Assembly (NCBI GenBank): GCA_018648685.1 | Contig: JABGQT010000046.1 | Span: 1-33,084 of the forward strand | Length of the DNA: 33,084 nucleotides | DNA from: Anaerolineae bacterium | GTDB lineage: Bacteria; Chloroflexota; Anaerolineae; Anaerolineales; Villigracilaceae | Reading direction: 5' to 3' | Shown here: positions 784 through 31,028 of the stretch, one piece after another | Layout of the letters: every line of letters starts with the position of its first letter | Position numbering within the stretch: position 1 is the stretch's first letter | Made by a program: the position numbers and the translations under genes | The notes under the pieces: model-generated | Database searches by the model: none | What the model saw: the letters and a program-made list of their open reading frames with translations, nothing else | What the model was told of the DNA's origin: nothing

Positions 784-1488
784 ATGAAAATTGGCATACT
801 GGATACAAATCCACCCAGCGCACATAGCATTAATTGGAACAAAACGCCCTTTGATACTTATGTCCGCTTTTTGGAGCGGGCAAAGCCCAGTTTTGAATAT
901 GAGAACTACAGCGTCGGGATAGGAGAATTCCCCTCTTCCCCGGGTGTTTGTGATGCCTATCTGATCACCGGCAGCCCGAAGGGTGTTTACGAACCTGATT
1001 TGTGGCTTGATACGCTAAAGAGATTCATTCAGGATGCCTATGCTGCAAAGAAAAAGCTGATCGGCATCTGCTTTGGACACCAAATGGTCGCTCATTCATT
1101 AGGCGGACATGCAGAGAAATCTGAAAAAGGATGGGGATTGGGGAAAAAGTATTTTAATATATATACAGAAAAAAAATGGATGTCAGACTTTATCGAAAAC
1201 CCTTCTTTATACTTTGTTCACCAGGATCAGATTATAGAGCTTCCCCCCAATGCTGAATTGCTCGGTGGAAACGAGTTTTGCCCGAATCTCTTTTATACAA
1301 TTGGTGATCAAGTGCTTGGCATACAGGGGCATCCCGAATTTCCGGAAGCATTGGTTCGTGAGATTGTTGAAACTCGCCTCGAAGTCGTTGGTGCAGAACT
1401 CCAAAGCCAGGCATTAGAATCGCTGGATGAAGGCATACCTGACAATCAACTTTTTGCAGAGTGGATCGTTAACTTTTTACTTCTCTGA
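784..1488 (+). CDS. Class I glutamine amidotransferase (GMP-synthase-like GATase domain protein)
   Basis: This 234-residue cytoplasmic protein has the class I glutaminase triad. The nucleophile Cys96 lies in GICFGHQ, and His183 with Glu185 lie in GHPEFP near the C-terminus. Such stand-alone domains release ammonia from glutamine, or act as gamma-glutamyl hydrolases or peptidases on small conjugates. No synthetase partner is encoded next to it, so the acceptor is unknown. The start is supported by an AGGA stretch just upstream of the ATG. The gene lies 23 bases after the NUDIX gene, in the same direction. GMP-synthase-like GATase fold is a confident call; the pathway is not known. Confidence 0.88.
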   Translation: MKIGILDTNPPSAHSINWNKTPFDTYVRFLERAKPSFEYENYSVGIGEFPSSPGVCDAYLITGSPKGVYEPDLWLDTLKRFIQDAYAAKKKLIGICFGHQMVAHSLGGHAEKSEKGWGLGKKYFNIYTEKKWMSDFIENPSLYFVHQDQIIELPPNAELLGGNEFCPNLFYTIGDQVLGIQGHPEFPEALVREIVETRLEVVGAELQSQALESLDEGIPDNQLFAEWIVNFLLL

Positions 1489-1519
1489 GAGCACATATTG
1501 TATTACTACTCTTTTTCAT

Positions 1520-1546
1520 CCCCCTAAATGCTTCGCATTTAGGGGG
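1520..1546. repeat. Dispersed hairpin repeat, copy 1 (CCCCCTAAATGC-TTC-GCATTTAGGGGG)
   Basis: Two perfect 12-base arms flank a 3-base loop, just downstream of the amidotransferase gene. A second copy with a single arm mismatch is at 31002-31028, about 29.5 kb away. No T-run follows, so an intrinsic terminator role is not supported, although the stem would be very stable. Bases 1551-1567 hold another GC-rich imperfect palindrome built from GCCCC/GGGGC around a GCGAAGC core. These are probably REP-like intergenic repeats. Confidence 0.75.
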
Positions 1547-1639
1547 GACGCCCCAGCGAAGCGAGGGGCAGCGGGCTGAACGTCTGACTTAAAAACGCAA
1601 GTGCCTAACATGGGTTTTAACAAGTGAACTGGAGTGAAT

Positions 1640-2323
1640 ATGATCGAAATTTCAGGAAGCAACGAATGGAAAGCCACGCATCTCAATGCTGTGATTGCTT
1701 TATTGGAAATATCGGGCGTGGATAATACACAACCATGCCCTCCGCTTGATGATCGAAAAAGAGAAATAGAAGCACAACTACGTGAAAAATATGGGGAATT
1801 TACGCGAAAGGAATTGGTCGCGCTGCTTGTAATGTCGGCTTATAAGCAATACTATAGTCGCTTTAAAAAGACCTACCATGTGCAGCTTCAAGTCGAATCA
1901 ATTGCACAAAAGGGAAGAAAGCTGCCCAATGTCTCTCCATTGGTGGATGCAAATTTCGTCGCTGAAATGGAGACCTTTATCCTAACAGCGGGGCATGATG
2001 TAGAAAAATTACAGCAGCCGATCACGATAGACATCTCCCGAGAGGGAGATACCATTACACAAATGAACGGTGAACACAAACCTATCCGTGCAGGCGATAT
2101 GATTATGAGAGATTCAAATGGAGTGAGTTGCTCAATCATTTACGGGCAAGACAATCGTTCATTCATATCCCCTGAGACATCTCACGTTCTTTATGTTGCT
2201 TATGTGCCAGATGGTATTCCAGCAGAGATTGCCATGACACAATTAGAGAAGATCGAAGAATATATTCGACTCTTTTCACCAAATGCAGTTGTGGAGCAGA
2301 AGCATTTGCTTAGAGCGAGTTAA
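1640..2323 (+). CDS. B3/4 domain protein (PheRS-beta-like tRNA-binding/editing domain)
   Basis: This protein of about 227 residues resembles the stand-alone B3/4 domain, known from the editing region of phenylalanyl-tRNA synthetase beta chains. Supporting segments are a YSRFKKTYHV stretch, LPNVSPLVDANF in the middle, then a glycine/aspartate-rich segment containing the GEHKPIRAGDMIMRD run, and C-terminal beta strands ending near HVLYVAY. Free-standing members are thought to act on mischarged tRNA or bind nucleic acid, but few are characterised. An in-frame GTG lies at 1634, but the GGAG ribosome site at 1630-1633 is only properly spaced for the ATG at 1640, so that start was chosen. The neighbours are unrelated accessory genes. 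Confidence 0.7.
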   Translation: MIEISGSNEWKATHLNAVIALLEISGVDNTQPCPPLDDRKREIEAQLREKYGEFTRKELVALLVMSAYKQYYSRFKKTYHVQLQVESIAQKGRKLPNVSPLVDANFVAEMETFILTAGHDVEKLQQPITIDISREGDTITQMNGEHKPIRAGDMIMRDSNGVSCSIIYGQDNRSFISPETSHVLYVAYVPDGIPAEIAMTQLEKIEEYIRLFSPNAVVEQKHLLRAS

Positions 2324-2354
2324 TCTCATAATTATAAGCCTACGGAGAAAAAAC

Positions 2355-2471
2355 ATGGAAATAACGGATACGCCTTTCAGCATTACGAATTGGTCAGAAT
2401 TCGAGCAAGCGGTAAAACCCTCACATAACGCCCCGTTAGCCGCGTCAAGTTGTTATCAAATGATTCGATGA
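2355..2471 (+). pseudogene. Truncated cupin gene (N-terminal remnant of a DHCW-motif-type cupin)
   Basis: A GGAG ribosome site precedes this ATG, and the first 17 or so residues (MEITDTPFSITNWSEFE) match the usual start of small DHCW-motif cupin proteins. After that the similarity stops. The frame runs into unrelated sequence at about 2415-2430 and ends at a TGA after 38 residues, so the cupin barrel is missing. The break coincides with a CATAACGCCCCGTTAGCC stretch at 2424-2441 that looks like a recombination point. The family call comes from the short N-terminus only. The remnant is very unlikely to encode a working cupin. Confidence 0.5.
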
Positions 2472-2483
2472 AAGGAATGAATT

Positions 2484-2951
2484 ATGCTTCATCCTGTAAG
2501 CGTTAAAGGCTTTGAAGACCGCCAATTGGCGATTAAATCTGCTGGATTACTTCTGATCCCAGGACCCAAATTGATGATTGACGGCAAGTTCGCTCCTAAA
2601 GGTTCTAAGAGTGGGCAGTATTTGCTTCATAGAAATGACGGCACTGAGATAGTTGCTCAACTTCGTTATTTACTGTTAGGCTTTGATCCTATTCCGCAAC
2701 TTATCATTGGAGATCAGATAATCAAAGTTGTAGAACCACTCAAGTGGTATCAGTGGATATGGAGTGCGCTTTCGTTTCTTTTACTCTTTTTCGGCGGTGC
2801 GGTCGGCGGGCTGTGTGGCGGAATAGCCTTCACGGTGAATATCCGTATCTTTCACTCAAATATGAGTAATTTGGCAAAGTATGCTATGAGCGCGATTGTG
2901 TCTATTGTAGCCGTGATAGCAACCTTTATCTTCGCAATAGCCGTTGCATAA
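2484..2951 (+). CDS. Hypothetical membrane protein, two predicted membrane segments
   Basis: I do not recognise this 155-residue protein. The N-terminal half (to about residue 85) is soluble and mixed alpha/beta in character. The C-terminal half has two strongly hydrophobic segments, at roughly residues 91-118 and 131-155, the first very glycine-rich. This suggests an inner-membrane protein with a small cytoplasmic N-terminal domain. An AAAGGAATGA stretch just before the ATG is a plausible ribosome site. The gene follows directly on a truncated cupin remnant and is bounded on both sides by CATAACG (2424-2430 and 2947-2953), so it may have arrived as a small mobile unit. A terminator hairpin lies about 60 bases downstream. 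Confidence 0.6.
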   Translation: MLHPVSVKGFEDRQLAIKSAGLLLIPGPKLMIDGKFAPKGSKSGQYLLHRNDGTEIVAQLRYLLLGFDPIPQLIIGDQIIKVVEPLKWYQWIWSALSFLLLFFGGAVGGLCGGIAFTVNIRIFHSNMSNLAKYAMSAIVSIVAVIATFIFAIAVA

Positions 2952-3011
2952 CGTTTTGTACGTGTTTTTGAGGTAATTCCTGTTGAAGTGAGAGTATAAA
3001 TGCCGCGTACT

Positions 3012-3059
3012 AAATCATCTCCCGCCTCGTAGTCAACGAGACGGGAGATTTAGTTTTAT
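3012..3059 (+). terminator. Intrinsic terminator after the small membrane protein gene
   Basis: A long stem pairs ACTAAAT and CTCCCGCCTCGT with ACGAGACGGGAG and ATTTAGT around an AGTCA loop. It has a 3-base bulge in the left arm and one C-A mismatch. A T-rich tail (TTAGTTTTATT) follows on the plus strand. It sits between the plus-strand membrane protein gene and the convergent minus-strand HsmA-like gene. Confidence 0.75.
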
Positions 3060-3060
3060 T

Positions 3061-3099
3061 CGTGAAAATCCGCCCAATCCGCAAAATCTGCGTTCTATT
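3061..3099. repeat. Dispersed repeat, copy A (inverted relative to 7675-7715)
   Basis: The reverse complement reads AATAGAACGCAGATTTTGCG then GATTGGGCGGATTTTCACG. It closely matches the plus-strand sequence at 7675-7715. It overlaps the stop codon of the HsmA-like gene by two bases. It is a short interspersed sequence of unknown function found at gene ends. Confidence 0.65.
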
Positions 3100-3466
3100 A
3101 TCTTGTCGCCATTGCAAAAAACATTGGGCTAAAGTAGGGGATCAGCCAAATAAACCAGACCAATACGCTGAATTTGTGGAAATTCTTGATCGCTTTTTCA
3201 TCATTTTTGCGAAGAACAAGATACGCCCAAAGCGCATGAATGAACATCAGGATAATGGCGATCAATCCGGAAATACCATGTACATCAAACATCATGCCGC
3301 CAACAAAATCGAACATCATCCCTGTCCCCCATGTATCGCAAATTAATCCTAGAATAAAAAAGCCCAAGTGCCATTTTTTCAATTCCCCTGAAAAACGTTC
3401 GCTCCACACACCGATCGAATAAAAGACTAAAGCTGATGTGATGATAATACTTGCCGATGAATCCAT
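3098..3466 (-). CDS. HsmA-like (TIGR03987-type) four-helix membrane protein
   Basis: This 122-residue protein is almost entirely membrane: four hydrophobic segments at roughly residues 5-21, 32-56, 62-86 and 98-120. The opening (ALVFYSIGVWSERFSG, then LKKWHLGFFILGLICDT) is characteristic of the small family annotated TIGR03987/HsmA. The founding HsmA of Clostridioides difficile, from memory, is a heme-responsive membrane protein that lessens heme and oxidative stress; whether this homologue binds heme is not shown here. The ribosome site AAAGGAG lies six bases before the ATG and is contained partly in the repeat at 3474-3512. The gene probably once followed homoserine dehydrogenase directly, before the SHMT-like gene was inserted between them. 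Confidence 0.75.
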   Translation of the reverse strand: MDSSASIIITSALVFYSIGVWSERFSGELKKWHLGFFILGLICDTWGTGMMFDFVGGMMFDVHGISGLIAIILMFIHALWAYLVLRKNDEKAIKNFHKFSVLVWFIWLIPYFSPMFFAMATR

Positions 3467-3473
3467 TGAATAC

Positions 3474-3512
3474 TCCTTTGAAAATTATTTCACCGCATTA
3501 CAAAATCTGCCA
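3474..3512. repeat. Direct repeat: duplicated 3' end of the homoserine dehydrogenase gene (degenerate copy)
   Basis: This 39-base stretch matches 4799-4840 with no mismatches, only three missing bases in two gaps. The other copy encodes the last residues ADFVNAVK-stop of homoserine dehydrogenase and the following bases. Here the reading frame is broken by the gaps. The stop codon of the SHMT-like gene (3513-3515) abuts the repeat exactly. Confidence 0.85.
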
Positions 3513-10873: not shown

Positions 10874-11521
10874 TTAAGAGATTGAAGATTTAAAACTCTG
10901 CCGATGGATGGAACTCTTCCCCAGCTTTTGGATTGCTTCTCGATGAGATTTTGTTCCATACCCCTTATTGCGGGACAATCCATAACCCGAAACTTGCTCG
11001 TTGAGGAGAAGCATCTCTGCATCCCTAGCAGTTTTCGCCAGCACCGAAGCAGATGCGATAGTCAACGAACGCATATCACCTTTGATGAATTTTTCCTGGG
11101 GAATATTGATATCGGAGAGATTGAGATAATCAGTAATTAGGTAATTGGGGGCTAGAGATAAGGCTTCTACAGCTCTTTTGGCAGCTAATCTTGTAGCGGG
11201 GAGAATGCCAATTTCGTCAATCTCAGCGGGAGATGCAAAGCTAACGCCCCAAGCCAGCGAAATTTCTTTAATGAGTGGTTCAAAATGATTTCGTTGTTTG
11301 ATGGTCATCTCTTTTGAGTCTCGTACGCCCGCTAAAATCTTCTTGAGTTTGGGGATATTAGGGAGGATAACAACTGCGGCATATACAGGACCTGCTAATG
11401 CGCCGCGACCGGCTTCGTCGATGCCGCCGAGATGGGTAAACCCTTTTTTCCAGAGTCTTTTTTCAATCTTTAGGTCTGGTGATTTAGGAAGTGTAGAAAT
11501 ATCAAACTTTTTTCTCGGCAT
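10874..11521 (-). CDS. rnhB: Ribonuclease HII
   Basis: RNase HII cleaves RNA in RNA-DNA hybrids and starts removal of single ribonucleotides from DNA. The 215-residue protein has the diagnostic GGIDEAGRGALAGP near residues 33-46 (catalytic Asp-Glu), DSKEMT, the ITDYLNL strand and SLTIASASVLAKTARD, with the expected acidic residues. Length matches the family. The start codon lies only six bases after the stop of the upstream methyltransferase gene, so the two are almost certainly co-transcribed. It converges with the hydrolase gene, leaving only 12 bases between their ends. Confidence 0.95.
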   Translation of the reverse strand: MPRKKFDISTLPKSPDLKIEKRLWKKGFTHLGGIDEAGRGALAGPVYAAVVILPNIPKLKKILAGVRDSKEMTIKQRNHFEPLIKEISLAWGVSFASPAEIDEIGILPATRLAAKRAVEALSLAPNYLITDYLNLSDINIPQEKFIKGDMRSLTIASASVLAKTARDAEMLLLNEQVSGYGLSRNKGYGTKSHREAIQKLGKSSIHRQSFKSSIS

Positions 11522-11527
11522 GAGAAT

Positions 11528-12241
11528 TTATCTTTTCTCCCAAGTCTGATACAAACCAAGATTGCCCGTGGAACCATCTGAGTAAAACGTATCCACAACT
11601 TTGAAATCACTCAACTCAGCAAGATGAGCCAGTTCTTCTTCGCTGTATTGGTGGGCGTAGCGATAGCCTGTGCCGCCACGCCGCCAGTCGAGGAGGTAGT
11701 CGCCTTTGTCGAGGTCGCTTTCGTTGATGTTGGCCACTTCCCAGCTTTGGATACGATTGCGGAGGCGTTCGGAGTTCAGAAATTGCCAATTAGAGAAGAT
11801 GAATTGTCCATTCGGGGCAAGGCGTTGGTGGATATTGCGCAAAATACGTAAACGCGTTTCTTCGCCGGGGATATGGTGCAATGTTGCAAAAGAAGTAATA
11901 AGTGAAAAGCGATCAGTGATGAGTGACCAGTCTGGCGAAGTAATGTCGAGGGCGAGGAATTTAGCGGGAAAATGTTTGGGGACGCGCATCGCGTCTTTGA
12001 GGAGTGGCAAGCTGAAATCCACGCCGAGATACGGGGCGGTATGACCGGTATCCGCTAATTGACGGGCAAACTCTCCATTGCCGCAGCCCAAATCCAGGAT
12101 CGAGAGATCCCGCCCAATCTCATCTAGAATTTTTCTCACGCCGGGTTGGATACGTCCGCGCGTCGCAGAAAATTGCTCGCCAAATTTCTGATAGAATTGG
12201 CTATTCAGTTCGACAATTTTCTCTATCGTTTCTTTTTTCAT
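11528..12241 (-). CDS. Trm9-like SAM-dependent methyltransferase (candidate tRNA wobble-uridine methyltransferase)
   Basis: This 237-residue class I methyltransferase has SAM motif I DLGCGNGEFA (50-59) and an acidic motif II residue at Asp75. Beyond the generic fold it matches the eukaryotic Trm9/ALKBH8 methyltransferase layout along its length: FYQKFGEQFSATR at 16-28 (Trm9 has YNEIAPHFSQTR), TLHHIP with ETR at 120-130 (VVHHWSTRERR), NWQF at 151 and YRYAHQYSEEEL at 193-204 (YRYYHLYREGEL). Trm9 methylates cm5U34 of tRNA, which is made by Elp3. Here elp3 starts 26 bases away on the opposite strand. An orthologous role is inferred; the Trm112 partner of eukaryotes is not encoded nearby. A TATAAT stands six bases before the ATG, so the mRNA may be leaderless. 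Confidence 0.75.
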   Translation of the reverse strand: MKKETIEKIVELNSQFYQKFGEQFSATRGRIQPGVRKILDEIGRDLSILDLGCGNGEFARQLADTGHTAPYLGVDFSLPLLKDAMRVPKHFPAKFLALDITSPDWSLITDRFSLITSFATLHHIPGEETRLRILRNIHQRLAPNGQFIFSNWQFLNSERLRNRIQSWEVANINESDLDKGDYLLDWRRGGTGYRYAHQYSEEELAHLAELSDFKVVDTFYSDGSTGNLGLYQTWEKR

Positions 12242-12267
12242 TTCTTTATTATATCCTGTAGGAAAAG

Positions 12268-13887
12268 ATGCCTGAAAAAGAAGTTTGGCTAGAATCTCGA
12301 AAAATCACGCCCGAAAAAATGCGGCTGGCGCGCTTGGCGCTGGCTGAGATTTACGCTGGCGAAGATGCGCTGAGCGCCATCAAACATCACCCCACAGCGA
12401 CGGGGTATATAGGCAAAAATGTTTTGGTTGCGGCCTATAACGCGATGGTTGATGGCGGCGAGATCGAAGCAAATAACGAGATCTTGGCAAAGATCCGCAT
12501 GAAACCCGTGCGCACGCTTTCGGGCGTGACGACGGTAACGGTGCTTACAAAACATTATCCCTGCCCGGGCGAGTGCATTTTTTGCCCAGACGATGTGCGC
12601 ATGCCAAAATCTTATTTGCCAGATGAGCCAGGTGCGATGCGAGCTTTGCATCATAAATTTGCCCCCTTTGAACAAGTTGAAGCTCGATTGGAAGCCTTGC
12701 GCGCAGTCGGGCATCCGACCGATAAAATTGAGTTGCTCATTTTAGGCGGAACGTGGAGTTCCTATAGACGCGATTATCAGGAGTGGTTTATAACGCGCTG
12801 TTTTGACGCACTAAATAAAAAGACCAGAGATAGTGAAATAGAAGTGGCAAAAGAAGGGGAATTAGAAAAAGCACATCGGATCAACGAAAGCGCACAACAT
12901 CGGAACGTCGGCTTGGTCGTCGAAACCCGACCGGACGAAGTCACACCAGAAGAGTTGGCTTGGTTCCGTTATTTGGGTGTGACCAAAATCCAGATGGGTG
13001 CGCAAAGTCTCGATAACGAGATTCTCGCGCTAAATAAACGGGGACACACCGTAGAAGAATTGCATCGCGCAATGGCGCTGCTGCGCGCAGGCGGCTTCAA
13101 GATCGTACTGCATTGGATGCCAAATCTGCTTGGCGCGACATTGGAATCTGACAGAGAAGATTTTCAACGCCTTTGGGGTGGAATCGCCCCAGATGAGATC
13201 AAAGTCTACCCCACCCAATTGCTTGAAAATACTGAACTACACGAAGCGTGGGAACGCGGCGAATATAAACCTTATACAACCAAAGAATTGATCAATCTCC
13301 TTGCAGATGTAAAACCCAGCATCCCGCGTTATTGTCGCGCAAATCGTGTTATTCGGGATATTCCCTCAACGAATGTGGTCGAAGGGAATAAGCGCACAAG
13401 TCTTCGTCAAGATGTGCATAGAGAAATGGCAACGCGAGGTACAAAATGTGATTGTCTGCGCTGTAGAGAAGTACGCGGAAAAGCGATTGAGATCGAGAAG
13501 TTGAAATTGGATGACTTAAAATATCAGGCTGATGATGCAGAAGAACATTTTATTTCCTTCATCACGTCCGATGATAAAGTAGCAGGTTTCTTAAGACTCT
13601 CACTCCCCAATGCGGATGCACCGAAGACGGGAATATCTGATTTGGAAGATGCTGCGATCATCCGCGAAGTACACGTTTATGGACTTTCTCTCGAAGTAGG
13701 CTCAGAAAAGAGTGGTTCGGCGCAACACGTAGGTCTTGGCACACGGCTGATGCTCGAAGCCGAGCAAGTTGCTCTCAAGAGCGGCTTCAGCAAAATGGCT
13801 ATCATCGCGGCAGTGGGGACGCGGGGCTATTATCTCGACCGTGGTTTTAAACGCGGTGAGTTATACCTAGTCAAAGAGATCAAATAA
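12268..13887 (+). CDS. elp3: Elp3-type tRNA uridine(34) acetyltransferase (radical SAM plus GNAT)
   Basis: This 539-residue protein has the full Elp3 arrangement. The radical SAM domain carries Cys99, Cys103 and Cys106 in CPGECIFC for the 4Fe-4S cluster. A cysteine cluster follows at CDCLRC (394-399), and the C-terminal GNAT acetyltransferase domain has QHVGLGTRL (486-494) for acetyl-CoA and ends in GYYLDRGF and YLVKEI. Elp3 transfers a carboxymethyl precursor from acetyl-CoA to C5 of wobble uridine in tRNA; bacterial single-subunit enzymes, including one from Dehalococcoides, have been studied structurally. AGGAAA precedes the ATG. Divergent 26 bases away is a Trm9-like methyltransferase gene. 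The tauE-like gene overlaps its stop (TAATG), so translation may be coupled. Confidence 0.95.
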   Translation: MPEKEVWLESRKITPEKMRLARLALAEIYAGEDALSAIKHHPTATGYIGKNVLVAAYNAMVDGGEIEANNEILAKIRMKPVRTLSGVTTVTVLTKHYPCPGECIFCPDDVRMPKSYLPDEPGAMRALHHKFAPFEQVEARLEALRAVGHPTDKIELLILGGTWSSYRRDYQEWFITRCFDALNKKTRDSEIEVAKEGELEKAHRINESAQHRNVGLVVETRPDEVTPEELAWFRYLGVTKIQMGAQSLDNEILALNKRGHTVEELHRAMALLRAGGFKIVLHWMPNLLGATLESDREDFQRLWGGIAPDEIKVYPTQLLENTELHEAWERGEYKPYTTKELINLLADVKPSIPRYCRANRVIRDIPSTNVVEGNKRTSLRQDVHREMATRGTKCDCLRCREVRGKAIEIEKLKLDDLKYQADDAEEHFISFITSDDKVAGFLRLSLPNADAPKTGISDLEDAAIIREVHVYGLSLEVGSEKSGSAQHVGLGTRLMLEAEQVALKSGFSKMAIIAAVGTRGYYLDRGFKRGELYLVKEIK

Positions 13888-14669
13888 TGGCAGATAATTT
13901 TCTAATGATCGGCGCCGGACTGGCGATCGGCTTTCTCATCGGGCTAACGGGCATGGGCGGCGGTGCGCTAATGACGCCCTTCCTGCTCGCAGTGATGAAA
14001 TACGACCCCGTTTTGGCAGTGGGCACAGACCTGGCTTTTGCTGCCATCACCAAGATCATCGGCGGCATCGGGCATCACCACGAGAGCAAAATCTCGCTCA
14101 AACCCGTACTCTGGATGGCGGCGGGCAGTATCCCCGCATCCATTTTAGGCTCACAATTTATTCTCAGCCAAACCGATAACCGCCAGCTAATAGACGAATT
14201 TCTCCCCAATCTTCTGGGTTGGACGCTGGTTATTGTCAGTGTAATCATCATCGCGCGCAGCTTCCGCGTTCTGGGACCGAAAAAAGAGAGCGAAGTCCGC
14301 TACCCCTCCCCTTGGGCGCTGGTAGCAATCGGCGCGATCGGCGGCGTATTGGTCGGGATGACCTCCATCGGAGGCGGGACAGTCATCATGGCGTTGCTTC
14401 TGCTCTTCTTCTCTATCCCGCTGAATTTTATGGTCGGGTTGGATGTCATGCACGGTGCGCTGCTCGCGATTATTAGCGCGTTTAGTTATATTTTCGCTGG
14501 ACAAACGGACTGGACAGCCGTTGGCTTGCTTCTAATTGGCTCTTTGCCCGGCGTCTGGCTTGGCGCCCGCACAGTACACCGCATCAACTTGCTGATGGTG
14601 CGTGGAATTTTAGGGCTGCTCGTACTGGGTGCGGGAATCCAGTTATTGCTTGGGGGCGGGGGACATTAA
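13887..14669 (+). CDS. TauE/SafE-family membrane transporter (putative sulfite/organosulfonate exporter)
   Basis: This 260-residue protein has about eight hydrophobic segments arranged as two halves, each beginning with a glycine-rich GLTGMGGGAL or GMTSIGGGTV motif (about residues 18-27 and 157-166). That internal repeat is the hallmark of the TauE/SafE (DUF81) family of anion exporters. The substrate, often sulfite or a sulfonate, cannot be determined from sequence. Its ATG overlaps the elp3 stop codon by one base and the HIT gene starts one base after its stop, so the three genes are tightly coupled in one operon. Confidence 0.88.
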   Translation: MADNFLMIGAGLAIGFLIGLTGMGGGALMTPFLLAVMKYDPVLAVGTDLAFAAITKIIGGIGHHHESKISLKPVLWMAAGSIPASILGSQFILSQTDNRQLIDEFLPNLLGWTLVIVSVIIIARSFRVLGPKKESEVRYPSPWALVAIGAIGGVLVGMTSIGGGTVIMALLLLFFSIPLNFMVGLDVMHGALLAIISAFSYIFAGQTDWTAVGLLLIGSLPGVWLGARTVHRINLLMVRGILGLLVLGAGIQLLLGGGGH

Positions 14670-27360: not shown

Positions 27361-30300
27361 TTAATGCTGTGTTTCTCGTCCGAGCGTCATGAGGGCGAGA
27401 GTTAGACTTTCGCCGCCTTCGTCGAGATGAGCTGCGCTGACCTTCTCATAAGTATCGAGTGTGGTGCCTGCGGTTAAGTCCCAACCTTCCCAGAGCAGAC
27501 CGATACGGGGAGCATCGTCGCCGTTGTTCAGGGATGCGCCGTTATCAAAAACAATGCTGATGTCCACGCGTTCGCCGGTACGCTCTGTGGGGGTCCTCAT
27601 CCGTTTGGCAGCATCTTCAAAAATATTCGCCAAGCGTAGACTGCCGCCAACCGACAAGAGGAGTTGATTCCCTTCCTTAGCACCGAGCCCGCGCAAATCC
27701 ACGATCGTTTCGACTTCGTAGGCAGATGAAAATCCTGTTTTTGCGCTCAAGAATTTCTCCACATCCGTCTGTACATATTCGCCTCCTTCCAATCCTTCAC
27801 CGCTATAGGCAACAAAAAGGAAGGTTTTATAGGGCTGGTATCCGCTCTCCTGCATGGTGCGGATGAGCTCAAGCATCATCCCCACACCCGAGGCATTATC
27901 GTTCGCACCAACGGGAATTTGCCCATCAGGCAATAAGGGCGGCTGGTCATATTGAGCAAAGACAACGATCATCTTGTCGTCAAATTGCCCTTCGCCAGCA
28001 ACTCCCGCTGTACCGGGCATATAACCGATCACATGCTTCGCTTCAACATTTTCGTGAATTTCCCCTTCGATTTTCATACGCAAATTCGTGTCAATTTCAA
28101 AATCAAAGATCTCATCCTGCCCCAAATCATCGCTCAGGTGCCGCAGCTCCGTCACGTTATAACCACTTTCAGCCAGCAGGCGGTTTGCCATTTCCTCGCT
28201 GATCCACATTGTGGGAATATCTGCGCCCTCTTCACGATTTGTACCAAACATGATCCAAATAGGATCGCGCGCAGAAAGGGTATAACGCTCTTTCAATCGT
28301 TTTTCGTCATCGGTGACGATCAAAACACCGGCTTTGGATACATCAGCCAGTTCATTAGCAGCTTCTTCCGAAAGAACGAGTAAAATTTCACCTCCGTAAT
28401 CTACGCCGCGCAAAGCCGGGATATTCGGGCCAAACCAAGTACCAAGGTTAAGCAGCTCTCCTGTCGCAACAAAGCGGACACTGCCTTCAACGTCACCTAA
28501 ATTGCGATAATAGCCAGGCCCATATTCCACATAATCTTCCCGATAGAGGGGCGCTGCCTTGCCGTCGTCTACTTCAAACACAGGGATGCTGGTTAAGGTT
28601 TCAAAAGAGCGTGAACGGGTTTGAAAAAACGTAGCTTTTTCGCCCGCCGGTTGAATGCCTAAATTTTTAAATTCGGATGCGATATAGTCTGCGGCCAGAT
28701 CCATTCCTCCGCTTCCCAACGCTCTCCCATCGAAAACGGGATTCGTGAGAACCGCAACGTGACCCAAGGCTTGCTCGCCGTCAAATTGGCTTGCCTGCTG
28801 CTGATAAAAAACAATATCACCCGTGCTACCACGCAACCAAAAGAAAGCCGTGACCGCCAAAGCAGAAGCAAGGAAGGTGTAACGATTAGCGAAAAGCCGC
28901 GTTACTTCAACACCAACGCGCTCGATAAGGCGACGAATGCCTTCACCAAAAAGGTTAAAGCCCATAATAGAGATAAAAAATGCGCCAGCGGGGTAGATCG
29001 CCATCCAGGGATAGGAGCGCGTATAGGTGCGCAGGTTGCTGAGCATCGCGCCCCATTCGGGGACATCCGAATAATGGAAAGGTGCGCCTGCAATATCAAG
29101 CTCTGCAAATGCGCCGCCACCGATAAAGATGCCAATAAAGCCCAATTCGCCGAGCAACATCAAAACCGCGCCCATCTCAAGTACGATGATCGAAACCAGG
29201 GAAGGAATCAAATTAGGCAGCACGTGCCGCCAGATAATACGCGGAGAGCGTGCCCCCAAGGCAACAGCACTCTCGATAAAAAGCTTTGGGTGGATCATCA
29301 TTACTTCGCCGCGCACAAATTGCATGATCTCCCCCCAGCCCACAAATCCCAGTGCGATAACAAAGGGATCAATACCTCGTCGAATACCAAAAGCCAGCAC
29401 CAGGATCATCGCCAGCAACAAAGTGGGGAAGGCAGCAATGATCTCTGCGAATCCGACGATAATACGATCTATTCTGCTACCGGCAAGCCATCCGGCAATT
29501 GCACCGAGCAAGAAGCCGACAAAAATACGTGCCAGAACAACAGCAGTTGCCAAAAAGAGCGTTTGTTGCGCACCGGAAAGCACCAAACTCATCATATCGC
29601 GCCCAAGCATATCCGTTCCCCAAGGATGGGTTTCGCTCGGCTCAAAAGGCGGGACAGAAAAATTGCCATCTTCGATGACCAAGCCCTGTGTTGTATAGGG
29701 GCTATGCGGAGAGAGTTGAGGACCAAAAACAATAACAAGAAATAGCGAAAGAAGAATGACGCCGCCGACCATAAAAGGGATATTCCCCAGCGTTCCTTGT
29801 ATCCACGCGCGTTTCCTGCCTTTGGTGCGATCACTTTTCAACTCAGGTAATGCAGCAGTTTCAGATTCAGCAGCGTCCAGCTTTTCCTTTACCAATTGGG
29901 TAAAAGGGCTGCCAGAATCTCTTTCTTTATCTTTCGATCTCTGCTTAAAGCCATCGCGCAAATCTCGAAGCCATTGAAGCAAGCCCTTATTTCCTTCTCT
30001 GTAAACACCGCGAGCAGCGTCTGCCAAACGTGGGTCTATAAGGTGATAGAGAATATCCAGAACGATATTGACGAAGATCACTAACGCGCCTAAAGAAAGC
30101 GCCAAAATGATCGTTAGATTATCATCACGCTGAGAGATAGCTTTTAACAAGGTAAATCCGATGCCCGACCAGCCGAAGAAAAATTCAACAACAGGCAAAG
30201 AACTCAATGAAAAGCGCAAAGATAGTGCAACGGTCGTGAGAATGGAAATAGCAGCATTCCGAAAGACATGCACTCCCGTAACAACGCGCTGACGCAACCC

Positions 30301-30933
30301 TTTGCTATGCGCCGTGCGGACATAATCTTGCAAGAGAATTTCTTCGATGGTTACAAAAGTAACACGGCTAATCTGCGCCAGAGGGCGGGCAGCAAGCACG
30401 AGCGCAGGCAGAATCATCCGTTTATCCCAGCCCAAACCGCCAACAGGAAGGAATTCCGAGCCGGTTGCCTGCGAAATTTTTATCACAGCAATTTGAAGGA
30501 GCATTGCCATAAAGAAGCTCGGGACAGAGATGCCAATGATCGAAAGCATTATCATCAAAAGAGAACGCCCTGATCTTTTCCCCGCCGCCAAAACCCCAAG
30601 TATCACCCCAAATACTGTTGCCACAAGCAAAGAAACTGCCAATAAACCAAAGCTACGAAGGATAAGCTCTGGGGCAAGTTCTATTACTGGCTCGGGTAAG
30701 AGAGAGAAACCACCTGCTGTGGTCTCGCCAAAATCTCCCTGTATCGCTTTCCCCCCATAGGCAATGGATTTACGCAATGCTTCTGGCATGGCATTTTCCA
30801 GGGGAACACCGCGCGCCATATCCAATCCCATGAAGCTCAGGAAAAGAATAAAGCCCAAAATAAGCACGCCAAATAGCAGGCGCTGTCCAAGCGCCAGAAA
30901 AATGCTCTTCTTCATTGTTTGTGTTTTGCTCAT
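27361..30933 (-). CDS. Fused DppB-DppC permease with C-terminal M28-peptidase-like domain
   Basis: From the ATG at 30933 this is about 1190 residues. Residues 7-310 are a DppB/OppB-type permease (EAA loop at about 206-227). Residues 381-671 are a DppC/OppC-type permease (HPWGTDMLGRD near 436, EAA loop at about 554-574). An extra membrane helix at about 685-701 should place residues 716-1190 outside. That last part resembles an M28 aminopeptidase (GANDNASG with Asp1012, GEG with Glu1046, Asp1079 in VDLRG). The first ligand His is Gln994, the second Glu of GEE is Gly1047 and the final His is replaced by Asp near 1140, so activity is doubtful. An upstream ATG at 31020 lies inside a repeat and is not favoured; no clear ribosome site is seen. 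Confidence 0.85.
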   Translation of the reverse strand: MSKTQTMKKSIFLALGQRLLFGVLILGFILFLSFMGLDMARGVPLENAMPEALRKSIAYGGKAIQGDFGETTAGGFSLLPEPVIELAPELILRSFGLLAVSLLVATVFGVILGVLAAGKRSGRSLLMIMLSIIGISVPSFFMAMLLQIAVIKISQATGSEFLPVGGLGWDKRMILPALVLAARPLAQISRVTFVTIEEILLQDYVRTAHSKGLRQRVVTGVHVFRNAAISILTTVALSLRFSLSSLPVVEFFFGWSGIGFTLLKAISQRDDNLTIILALSLGALVIFVNIVLDILYHLIDPRLADAARGVYREGNKGLLQWLRDLRDGFKQRSKDKERDSGSPFTQLVKEKLDAAESETAALPELKSDRTKGRKRAWIQGTLGNIPFMVGGVILLSLFLVIVFGPQLSPHSPYTTQGLVIEDGNFSVPPFEPSETHPWGTDMLGRDMMSLVLSGAQQTLFLATAVVLARIFVGFLLGAIAGWLAGSRIDRIIVGFAEIIAAFPTLLLAMILVLAFGIRRGIDPFVIALGFVGWGEIMQFVRGEVMMIHPKLFIESAVALGARSPRIIWRHVLPNLIPSLVSIIVLEMGAVLMLLGELGFIGIFIGGGAFAELDIAGAPFHYSDVPEWGAMLSNLRTYTRSYPWMAIYPAGAFFISIMGFNLFGEGIRRLIERVGVEVTRLFANRYTFLASALAVTAFFWLRGSTGDIVFYQQQASQFDGEQALGHVAVLTNPVFDGRALGSGGMDLAADYIASEFKNLGIQPAGEKATFFQTRSRSFETLTSIPVFEVDDGKAAPLYREDYVEYGPGYYRNLGDVEGSVRFVATGELLNLGTWFGPNIPALRGVDYGGEILLVLSEEAANELADVSKAGVLIVTDDEKRLKERYTLSARDPIWIMFGTNREEGADIPTMWISEEMANRLLAESGYNVTELRHLSDDLGQDEIFDFEIDTNLRMKIEGEIHENVEAKHVIGYMPGTAGVAGEGQFDDKMIVVFAQYDQPPLLPDGQIPVGANDNASGVGMMLELIRTMQESGYQPYKTFLFVAYSGEGLEGGEYVQTDVEKFLSAKTGFSSAYEVETIVDLRGLGAKEGNQLLLSVGGSLRLANIFEDAAKRMRTPTERTGERVDISIVFDNGASLNNGDDAPRIGLLWEGWDLTAGTTLDTYEKVSAAHLDEGGESLTLALMTLGRETQH

Positions 30934-31001
30934 AGTTTTTTGTTTTGTTTTTTTGAAAACGTCCCTCGTCGCCCCCCTGCTCCTTGCTCCACTCGGAGCT
31001 T

Positions 31002-31028
31002 CCCCCCAAATGCTTCGCATTTAGGGGG
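31002..31028. repeat. Dispersed hairpin repeat, copy 2
   Basis: This is the second copy of the repeat at 1520-1546, with arms CCCCCCAAATGC and GCATTTAGGGGG around TTC and one C-A mismatch in the stem. It sits between the beta-propeller-like gene and the permease fusion gene. Confidence 0.75.

Follow-up and report, generated by a model that had tools for sequence, protein, structure and literature searches.

Do bacteria that carry a one-protein Elp3 make the methyl-ester wobble uridine that eukaryotes make with Elongator and Trm9? The question is raised by a 33,084-nucleotide stretch of DNA from an Anaerolineae bacterium (contig JABGQT010000046.1 of assembly GCA_018648685.1; hereafter the window), in which an elp3 gene (12268..13887, plus strand; 539 residues, P0002) stands head to head with a gene for a Trm9-like S-adenosylmethionine (SAM) methyltransferase (11528..12241, minus strand; 237 residues, P0001). 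Only 26 bases (12242..12267) separate the two start codons. An earlier note had singled out this arrangement of a complete Elp3 beside a divergent class I methyltransferase as a candidate bacterial route to 5-methoxycarbonylmethyluridine (mcm5U) at tRNA position 34, and both open reading frames (ORFs) are where it placed them. Judged from the sequences and from their distribution among genomes, it is likely that the two proteins, a proposed synthase of 5-carboxymethyluridine (cm5U34) and a proposed carboxyl O-methyltransferase acting on it, catalyze consecutive reactions in a bacterial pathway of wobble-uridine modification, one that replaces the MnmE/MnmG (MnmEG) route used by most bacteria (PMC7663514). 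Many Chloroflexota and some members of other phyla probably make, in this way, a tRNA base regarded as eukaryotic and off record for bacteria.

Elp3 and the methyltransferase are retained together

The pairing of elp3 with the methyltransferase gene exceeds what chance would produce. Two overlapping samples were searched, 249 genomes of the window's class (the class draw) and 301 genomes of the phylum draw. In the class draw the methyltransferase was scored as present at 46.7 bits or more (next generic match 40.1 bits), Elp3 at 97 bits or more (partial genes included, a 75.3-bit partial gene in G120 excluded) and MnmG at 95.9 bits or more (next 73.8 bits), thresholds that were chosen after gaps in the scores were seen. 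The limits in the phylum draw were E-values of at most 1e-25 for the methyltransferase and at most 1e-40 for Elp3 and for MnmG. Both genes occurred in 123 class genomes, Elp3 alone in 12, the methyltransferase alone in one and neither in 113; in the phylum draw 51 genomes had both, one had only Elp3 and one only the methyltransferase. The match in this last genome (G311), which also has MnmG, is partial (93.7 bits) and possibly spurious.

Conservation of adjacency had been named in the earlier note as a point on which the idea could fail, and it held. The pair lies on one contig in 98 of the 123 class genomes with both genes, and in 96 of these 98 the genes are divergent within 1.7 kb; 47 of the 48 same-contig pairs of the phylum draw are divergent within 3 kb. 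The other 27 class genomes with both genes comprise 25 with the genes on different contigs, one with them far apart and one with them in tandem. Related loci were also collected from contigs of the Genome Taxonomy Database (GTDB), 80 being kept of 202 found. Among the 75 with at least 600 bases of upstream sequence, 58 contain Elp3, always divergent and at gaps of 13 to 3537 bases. Elp3 is likewise present in 17 of the 22 loci titled with another phylum or with none, and outside Chloroflexota the pair occurs in Patescibacteria, Deltaproteobacteria and one Ignavibacterial genome (titles include Pacebacteria, Dojkabacteria, Kuenenbacteria, Portnoybacteria, Uhrbacteria, Magasanikbacteria, Deltaproteobacteria and Ignavibacteriales). 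The pair proposed at the outset is thus real and conserved; the frame in which it had been placed was too narrow, as it spans several phyla and includes the neighbor of the crystallized Dehalococcoides Elp3 described below.

The Fisher values (1.3e-55 and 7e-29 in the class draw, 1.5e-55 and 6e-14 in the phylum draw) overstate the evidence because genomes in these draws are not independent of one another; counts of families provide a fairer measure. By that measure the pair is present in 24 families of the class, and 20 of these include at least one genome with the genes side by side. Families f36 and f21 retain both genes with adjacency in only 0 of 10 and 1 of 9 genomes, respectively; their genes lie mostly on different contigs of draft assemblies, whose contig ends were not checked. 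In G067, an assembly of three contigs, the two genes are 761 kb apart on one contig. That f36 and f21 keep both genes, though these are rarely found side by side, suggests that the two work together and are not simply linked.

Some genomes arrange elp3 differently. In four Elp3-only genomes of family f11 (L041, L045, L050 and L052) the gene adjoins one that, by eye, resembles a histidine phosphatase (RHGQT.WN). In G194, which has no Trm9-like gene, a different methyltransferase gene (L068:2089-2970, minus strand) precedes elp3 on the same strand; the start of its product looks Trm112-like by eye, and it might be a substitute for the Trm9-like enzyme.

MnmG is not found with Elp3 in either draw

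A cell whose U34 is modified by Elp3 and the methyltransferase should be able to do without the standard MnmE/MnmG route. In both draws MnmG is absent wherever Elp3 is present: it was found in 0 of 135 Elp3 genomes of the class compared with 65 of 114 without Elp3, and in 0 of 52 compared with 122 of 249 in the phylum draw. At the level of families of the class, 24 have the pair and 20 have MnmG, and the overlap is zero. The genome behind the window (3.56 Mb, 88.5% complete; the window is its contig C88) yielded a best E-value of 5.5e-13 for MnmG and no match at 1e-40 or below, MnmE not having been searched for. Among the 22 genomes behind the loci outside named Chloroflexota, 21 are without MnmG; 19 of the 22 are no larger than 1.4 Mb, a size for which a control rate of MnmG is lacking. 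The absence of MnmG provides independent support for a pathway in which the pair takes over the modification of U34.

The 2-thiolase MnmA is kept. It scored over its cut-off in 225 of 249 class genomes and reached 372.7 bits in the window's genome, and the expected end product would therefore be mcm5U or its 2-thio derivative, 5-methoxycarbonylmethyl-2-thiouridine (mcm5s2U). As a separate observation, five genomes in which none of Elp3, the methyltransferase and MnmG was found (G003, G010, G041, G046 and G073) are 97-98% complete and have MnmA.

The methyltransferase family is related to Trm9

By domain search P0001 is a class I SAM methyltransferase. Its nearest named relatives come from Anaerolineales and other Chloroflexota (the protein of locus L071 is 76% identical), and an AlphaFold2 model built from 30 relatives has a mean predicted local distance difference test (pLDDT) score of 94.4. 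Two alignments of the family were used, A1 with 30 close relatives of P0001 and A2 with a diverse set of 46 sequences. Searches of the PDB with either profile placed yeast Trm9 (5cm2_Z, from Yarrowia) first, with 58 bits over 23-221 for A1 and 94.8 bits over 26-220 for A2. Both profiles matched Trm9 into its C-terminal lid, whereas most of the other chains tabled were matched over the SAM core only.

No NCBIfam cut-off was reached by P0001, by the L071 protein or by the Dehalococcoides protein discussed below; for the other members of A2 this comparison consists of counts and best E-values for 25 of 101 families, without cut-offs. Generic methyltransferase families score P0001 weakly, CmoM gives 16.2 bits against a cut-off of 366, and no family named MnmM or MnmC is among the 22 NCBIfam matches of P0001, in a library that was not checked for such models.

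The stretches FSATR, LHHIP...ETR, NWQF and YRYAHQYSEEEL, on which the earlier note had based its comparison with Trm9, are all found in the translation. In the alignment to 5cm2_Z, R28 within FSATR (12158..12172, minus strand) falls on the arginine of the Trm9 motif NTR, H122-H123 (11873..11878, minus strand) on its HH and R194-Y195-A196-H197 (11651..11662, minus strand) on its RYYH; W152 and W186 also stand at Trm9 positions. Yeast Trm9 numbers were mapped to these columns through what we take to be the yeast sequence together with the Yarrowia letters in the alignment, and on this mapping R29, H115 and R241 of Trm9 align with R28, H122 and R194 of P0001. Mutation of Trm9 R29, H115, R241, Y243 or N271 lowers tRNA affinity and the turnover number (kcat) (PMC5372719). 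R28, H122, H123, W152, R194 and Y195 are invariant in all 30 sequences of A1, and among the 46 of A2 conservation is complete for R28 and H123 and nearly so for R194 (45), Y195 (44), H197 (43) and H122 (40). The pocket is not identical to that of Trm9, because Y243 is replaced in the window's clade. From the lineage of the enzyme, its active-site residues and its co-retention with Elp3, we infer that it methylates cm5U34 to mcm5U34.

Phylogenetic trees point the same way, with one exception considered below. Tree 1 contained 55 of 75 family rows, Trm9, three PDB fragments, four of eight own-genome methyltransferases (a motif filter left out the remaining four) and a fusion protein from L068. 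Tree 2 added 10 of 14 fetched loci, trimmed to segments flanking the SAM motif, and left out 10 family rows; the motif filter excluded four fetched loci, and one added row repeats an own-genome row. Tree 3 gained three Dehalococcoides-type rows (L165 excluded) and lost four outgroup rows, three of them long and one a repeat. The family and Trm9 separate from 8 other methyltransferases in tree 1 (support 92/90) and from 14 others in tree 3, with its four outgroup rows excluded (99/93). In tree 2 Trm9 groups with 16 family rows (96/90), whose titles are mostly Patescibacteria groups or "bacterium" and in one case Ignavibacterial. All three trees, which hold a single Trm9 sequence on a long branch and no archaeal Trm9, place Trm9 inside the family on the Patescibacteria branch and the window protein in the sister branch. 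The possibility raised in advance that the methyltransferase would group with unrelated small-molecule methyltransferases was not borne out, as family profiles and trees place it with Trm9.

Elp3 of the window and of Dehalococcoides

The Elp3 of the window scores 473.1 bits against NCBIfam TIGR01211 (curated cut-off 350) and has radical-SAM, radical-SAM C-terminal and GNAT (PF00583, 22.8 bits) domains in Pfam. The radical-SAM cysteines C99, C103 and C106 lie in the iron-sulphur motif CPGECIFC (12562..12585, plus strand), a further cysteine cluster starts at C394, and the top PDB matches are chains named Elp3 family and Elongator protein 3. Mutagenesis of Methanocaldococcus Elp3 has identified K150, K266 and Y517 (PMC6367351) and E207, K302 and Y304 (PMC13315578) as residues that matter for hydrolysis of acetyl-CoA and for making cm5U. 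With the Methanocaldococcus numbers placed by hand on the PDB alignment (an offset of 42, taken from the distances between Q461, H463 and Y517), the window equivalents of K150, E207, K266, K302, Y304 and Y517 are K153, E219, K278, K312, Y314 and Y521. With the residues expected of an Elp3 in place except Q461, the protein is predicted to form cm5U34. It also has, at its N terminus, roughly 75 residues of a kind missing from the Dehalococcoides mccartyi protein (DmcElp3).

The pair also occurs beside an Elp3 of known structure. In locus L166, from a genome met in the phylum draw, the Elp3 (2102-3481, plus strand) is identical to PDB 5l7j at 459 of 459 residues. In a second matching PDB chain a loop is replaced by GSGSG, and because a D. 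mccartyi Elp3 construct with such a replacement has been described (PMC6367351), we take the L166 protein to be the Elp3 of that structural work. As in the window, its divergent neighbor is a Trm9-like methyltransferase gene (1384-2058, minus strand; 224 residues), with 43 bases between the ORFs. The product has R, HH, TVW, TLVPW and RYY at Trm9 positions. It differs from the window's enzyme in belonging to another subclade, the one with yeast Trm9, and it carries RYYR (RYYH in L165 and L167) and LVPW, as Trm9 does.

A putative wobble-uridine pathway and its alternatives

What we infer about substrate, product and reaction order is as follows. Elp3 alone, through its radical-SAM centre and acetyl-CoA, would add a carboxymethyl group to C5 of U34 to give cm5U34. 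The Trm9-like enzyme would then move the methyl group of SAM onto the carboxylate of cm5U34, forming the methyl ester mcm5U34, and MnmA would thiolate the base at position 2 in tRNA-Lys, tRNA-Glu and tRNA-Gln to give mcm5s2U34. A bolder proposal joins two claims: that at least three bacterial phyla have a complete mcm5s2U34 pathway of Elp3, a Trm9 orthologue and MnmA that replaces MnmEG as a unit, and that eukaryotic Trm9 arose from within the bacterial family, on the Patescibacteria/Dehalococcoides branch, so that the methyl-ester step would be older than eukaryotes or borrowed by them. We hold this combination tentatively and place it slightly short of an even chance.

A number of observations weigh against a successive action of the two enzymes on U34. 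At the level of genomes, the methyltransferase is missing in 12 of the 135 Elp3 genomes of the class, Elp3 is not seen in 17 of the 75 related loci that have at least 600 bases upstream, and an Ignavibacteriales genome (L135, G256) has the pair together with a full MnmG (822.9 bits). In this sole such case the pair and MnmG may truly coexist, or the genome may have been binned wrongly. None of Elp3, the methyltransferase and MnmG was found in 48 of 249 and 127 of 301 genomes, so that lack of MnmG alone does not call for Elp3. For the methyltransferase, P0001 as a single query found the generic methyltransferase 3bkw best in the PDB and Trm9 sixth, though with the longest span, and the Dehalococcoides enzyme as a single query ranked Trm9 seventh. 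In Foldseek rankings, amid many class I methyltransferases, Trm9 came third with the window model as query and sixth with that of the Dehalococcoides enzyme. Among the 50 matches listed, the target-normalised template modelling score (TM-score) of Trm9 was the highest for the Dehalococcoides model (0.80) and joint highest for the window model (0.76), and this structural comparison is compatible with a relation to Trm9 but does not discriminate. When the core letters of Trm9 were searched against the window's genome, the window gene led narrowly (27.4 versus 26.6 bits), being the sole match over 3-180, and in several relatives' genomes another gene outscores the family member. Tree 2, with 18 other methyltransferases, lacks a clade of the family with Trm9 (one fusion protein joins the group), and such a clade was not rejected by the approximately unbiased test (p-AU 0.41). 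At the level of residues, the column of Trm9 Y243 (196) is alanine in P0001 and tyrosine in 11 of the 46 sequences of A2, and the N271 region aligns unreliably with the family, leaving its equivalent unfixed; in the window's Elp3, Glu467 stands in place of Q461 of the Methanocaldococcus protein and Leu159 in place of its tunnel residue M156.

The locus could also be read in other ways. The methyltransferase could act on the product of Elp3 with an end nucleoside other than mcm5U, the ester being an intermediate (on the way, for example, to the amide 5-carbamoylmethyluridine, ncm5U) or the enzyme methylating another Elp3-dependent group on U34. Side branches of this kind exist, since a yeast trm9 mutant accumulates ncm5U (PMC3110198), and ncm5U occurs in an archaeon (PMC5372719); the replacement of Y243 in the window's clade fits them as well. 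The retention of R28, HH and R194 argues the other way, as does, weakly, the fact that no third conserved gene was seen among the window's own neighbors, which were the ones looked for. On balance we regard a different end nucleoside as unlikely. We give still less credence to a methyltransferase of some other pathway, acting on a small molecule, lipid or protein, that is merely a conserved neighbor of elp3. Class I methyltransferases are hard to assign, and the failure of P0001 to reach any NCBIfam cut-off and its generic best match as a single query speak for this reading. However, the gene is kept with Elp3 even in families that rarely show adjacency, the same divergent layout recurs in several phyla, the family profile matches Trm9 best, including the lid, and the enzyme groups with Trm9 in trees 1 and 3. 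A role in small-molecule methylation in particular was rated low given this co-retention.

An Elp3 that acts elsewhere than on the wobble base, with the absence of MnmG a matter of lineage history, seems to us just as improbable. The Dehalococcoides protein showed only weak tRNA-induced acetyl-CoA hydrolysis (PMC6367351), direct evidence of carboxymethyl-type (xcm5U34) derivatives is lacking in these bacteria according to the excerpt of one review (PMC7663514), and genomes that have neither the pair nor MnmG show that a lack of MnmG need not go with Elp3. Yet the key residues of Elp3 are present apart from Q461, the window protein has the N-terminal stretch that DmcElp3 lacks, and the exclusion of MnmG runs across 24 versus 20 families and extends to 21 of the 22 outside genomes, within the limit that the small size of 19 of them sets. 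We favor a model in which Elp3 and the Trm9-like enzyme act in turn on U34.

If this model is right, large parts of Chloroflexota and several other lineages would read two-box codons by means of a base like that of eukaryotes, without MnmEG. The Dehalococcoides Elp3, whose structure is known, would gain a partner and an end product that can be tested directly, and a two-gene system would offer a simple model for the Elongator-Trm9 pathway.

Trm112-like sequences

The earlier note had supposed that the pair works without Trm112, and this part is not established. The window's genome contains an 84-residue Trm112-like ORF (L070:1462-1716) with a match of 23 bits against a cut-off of 22, and nearly every genome examined gave a Trm112p match. 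At E-values of at most 0.05, all 30 genomes that carry the methyltransferase and all 20 that carry MnmG had one, as did 5 of the 10 that have neither. Matches passed the cut-off in 53 of the 60 genomes, and some matches lie within long, unrelated frames. A specific Trm112 partner is likewise unsupported, as the matches occur with or without the methyltransferase.

Relation to known systems

The pathway of eukaryotes, in which Elongator is followed by Trm9-Trm112 (ALKBH8-TRMT112), resembles the bacterial pair in having an Elp3 with nearly the same key residues, a methyltransferase with the shared R28, HH, W152, W186 and RY.H positions and thiolation of the same tRNAs, which for the bacterial pair is expected. 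It differs in the residue at the Y243 column, in thiolation by Ctu1/Ctu2 (Ncs6) where bacteria have MnmA, and in its further Elongator subunits: no other Elongator gene lies beside the pair in the window, and no genome-wide search for one was made. Closer in composition are archaea such as Haloferax volcanii and Sulfolobus solfataricus, which have a single-protein Elp3 and a Trm9 homologue; the two have been predicted to cooperate, and their genes form a cluster in S. solfataricus (PMC2584109, PMC5372719). The bacterial pair belongs to a different domain of life, is divergent and widespread in its clade, and excludes MnmG. The MnmE/MnmG route with MnmC or MnmM, which yields 5-carboxymethylaminomethyluridine (cmnm5U), 5-aminomethyluridine (nm5U) and 5-methylaminomethyluridine (mnm5U), similarly builds a side chain on C5 of U34 that is followed by methylation and MnmA thiolation, but by different chemistry and enzymes.

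The Elp3-Trm9 route itself is already known; what is new is its bacterial setting, the proposed combination with MnmA and the proposed replacement of MnmEG. A search of the open-licence PMC literature found no description of the bacterial elp3-methyltransferase pair, which is not proof of absence. The excerpt of a 2017 review states that bacteria have no genes similar to Trm112-dependent methyltransferases (PMC5372719), that of a 2020 catalogue lists none of cm5U, mcm5U and mcm5s2U among bacterial nucleosides (PMC7694415), and in the excerpts of two papers on bacteria mcm5U is named only for eukaryotic or viral-host tRNA (PMC9963407, PMC10945773).

Neighboring genes and other features

A gene for RNase HII (10874..11521, minus strand; PF01351, 112 bits) lies 6 bases downstream of the methyltransferase gene on the same strand. 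It had been assigned to the methyltransferase operon, and the arrangement in the window agrees, but it is not a conserved neighbor: it has a match in 0 of 80 related loci (E-value at most 1e-5; flanks of up to 4 kb, some shorter), which rules it out as part of the conserved unit. On the other side, a gene for a TauE/SafE-type transporter (13887..14669, plus strand) overlaps the last base of elp3. It too was rejected as part of the unit, as only 3 of the 80 loci match it (L071, L076 and L115).

A mobile origin of the methyltransferase gene was also considered and set aside. No viral contig encodes a relative of P0001, with a query that reaches close relatives only, and although 10 plasmid records match P0001, none does so across more than 80% of the query.

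Farther along the window, a 1219-residue ORF (27361-31020, minus strand) joins ABC-type permease domains (BPD_transp_1 twice and OppC_N) to an M28 peptidase, a fusion that seems unusual.

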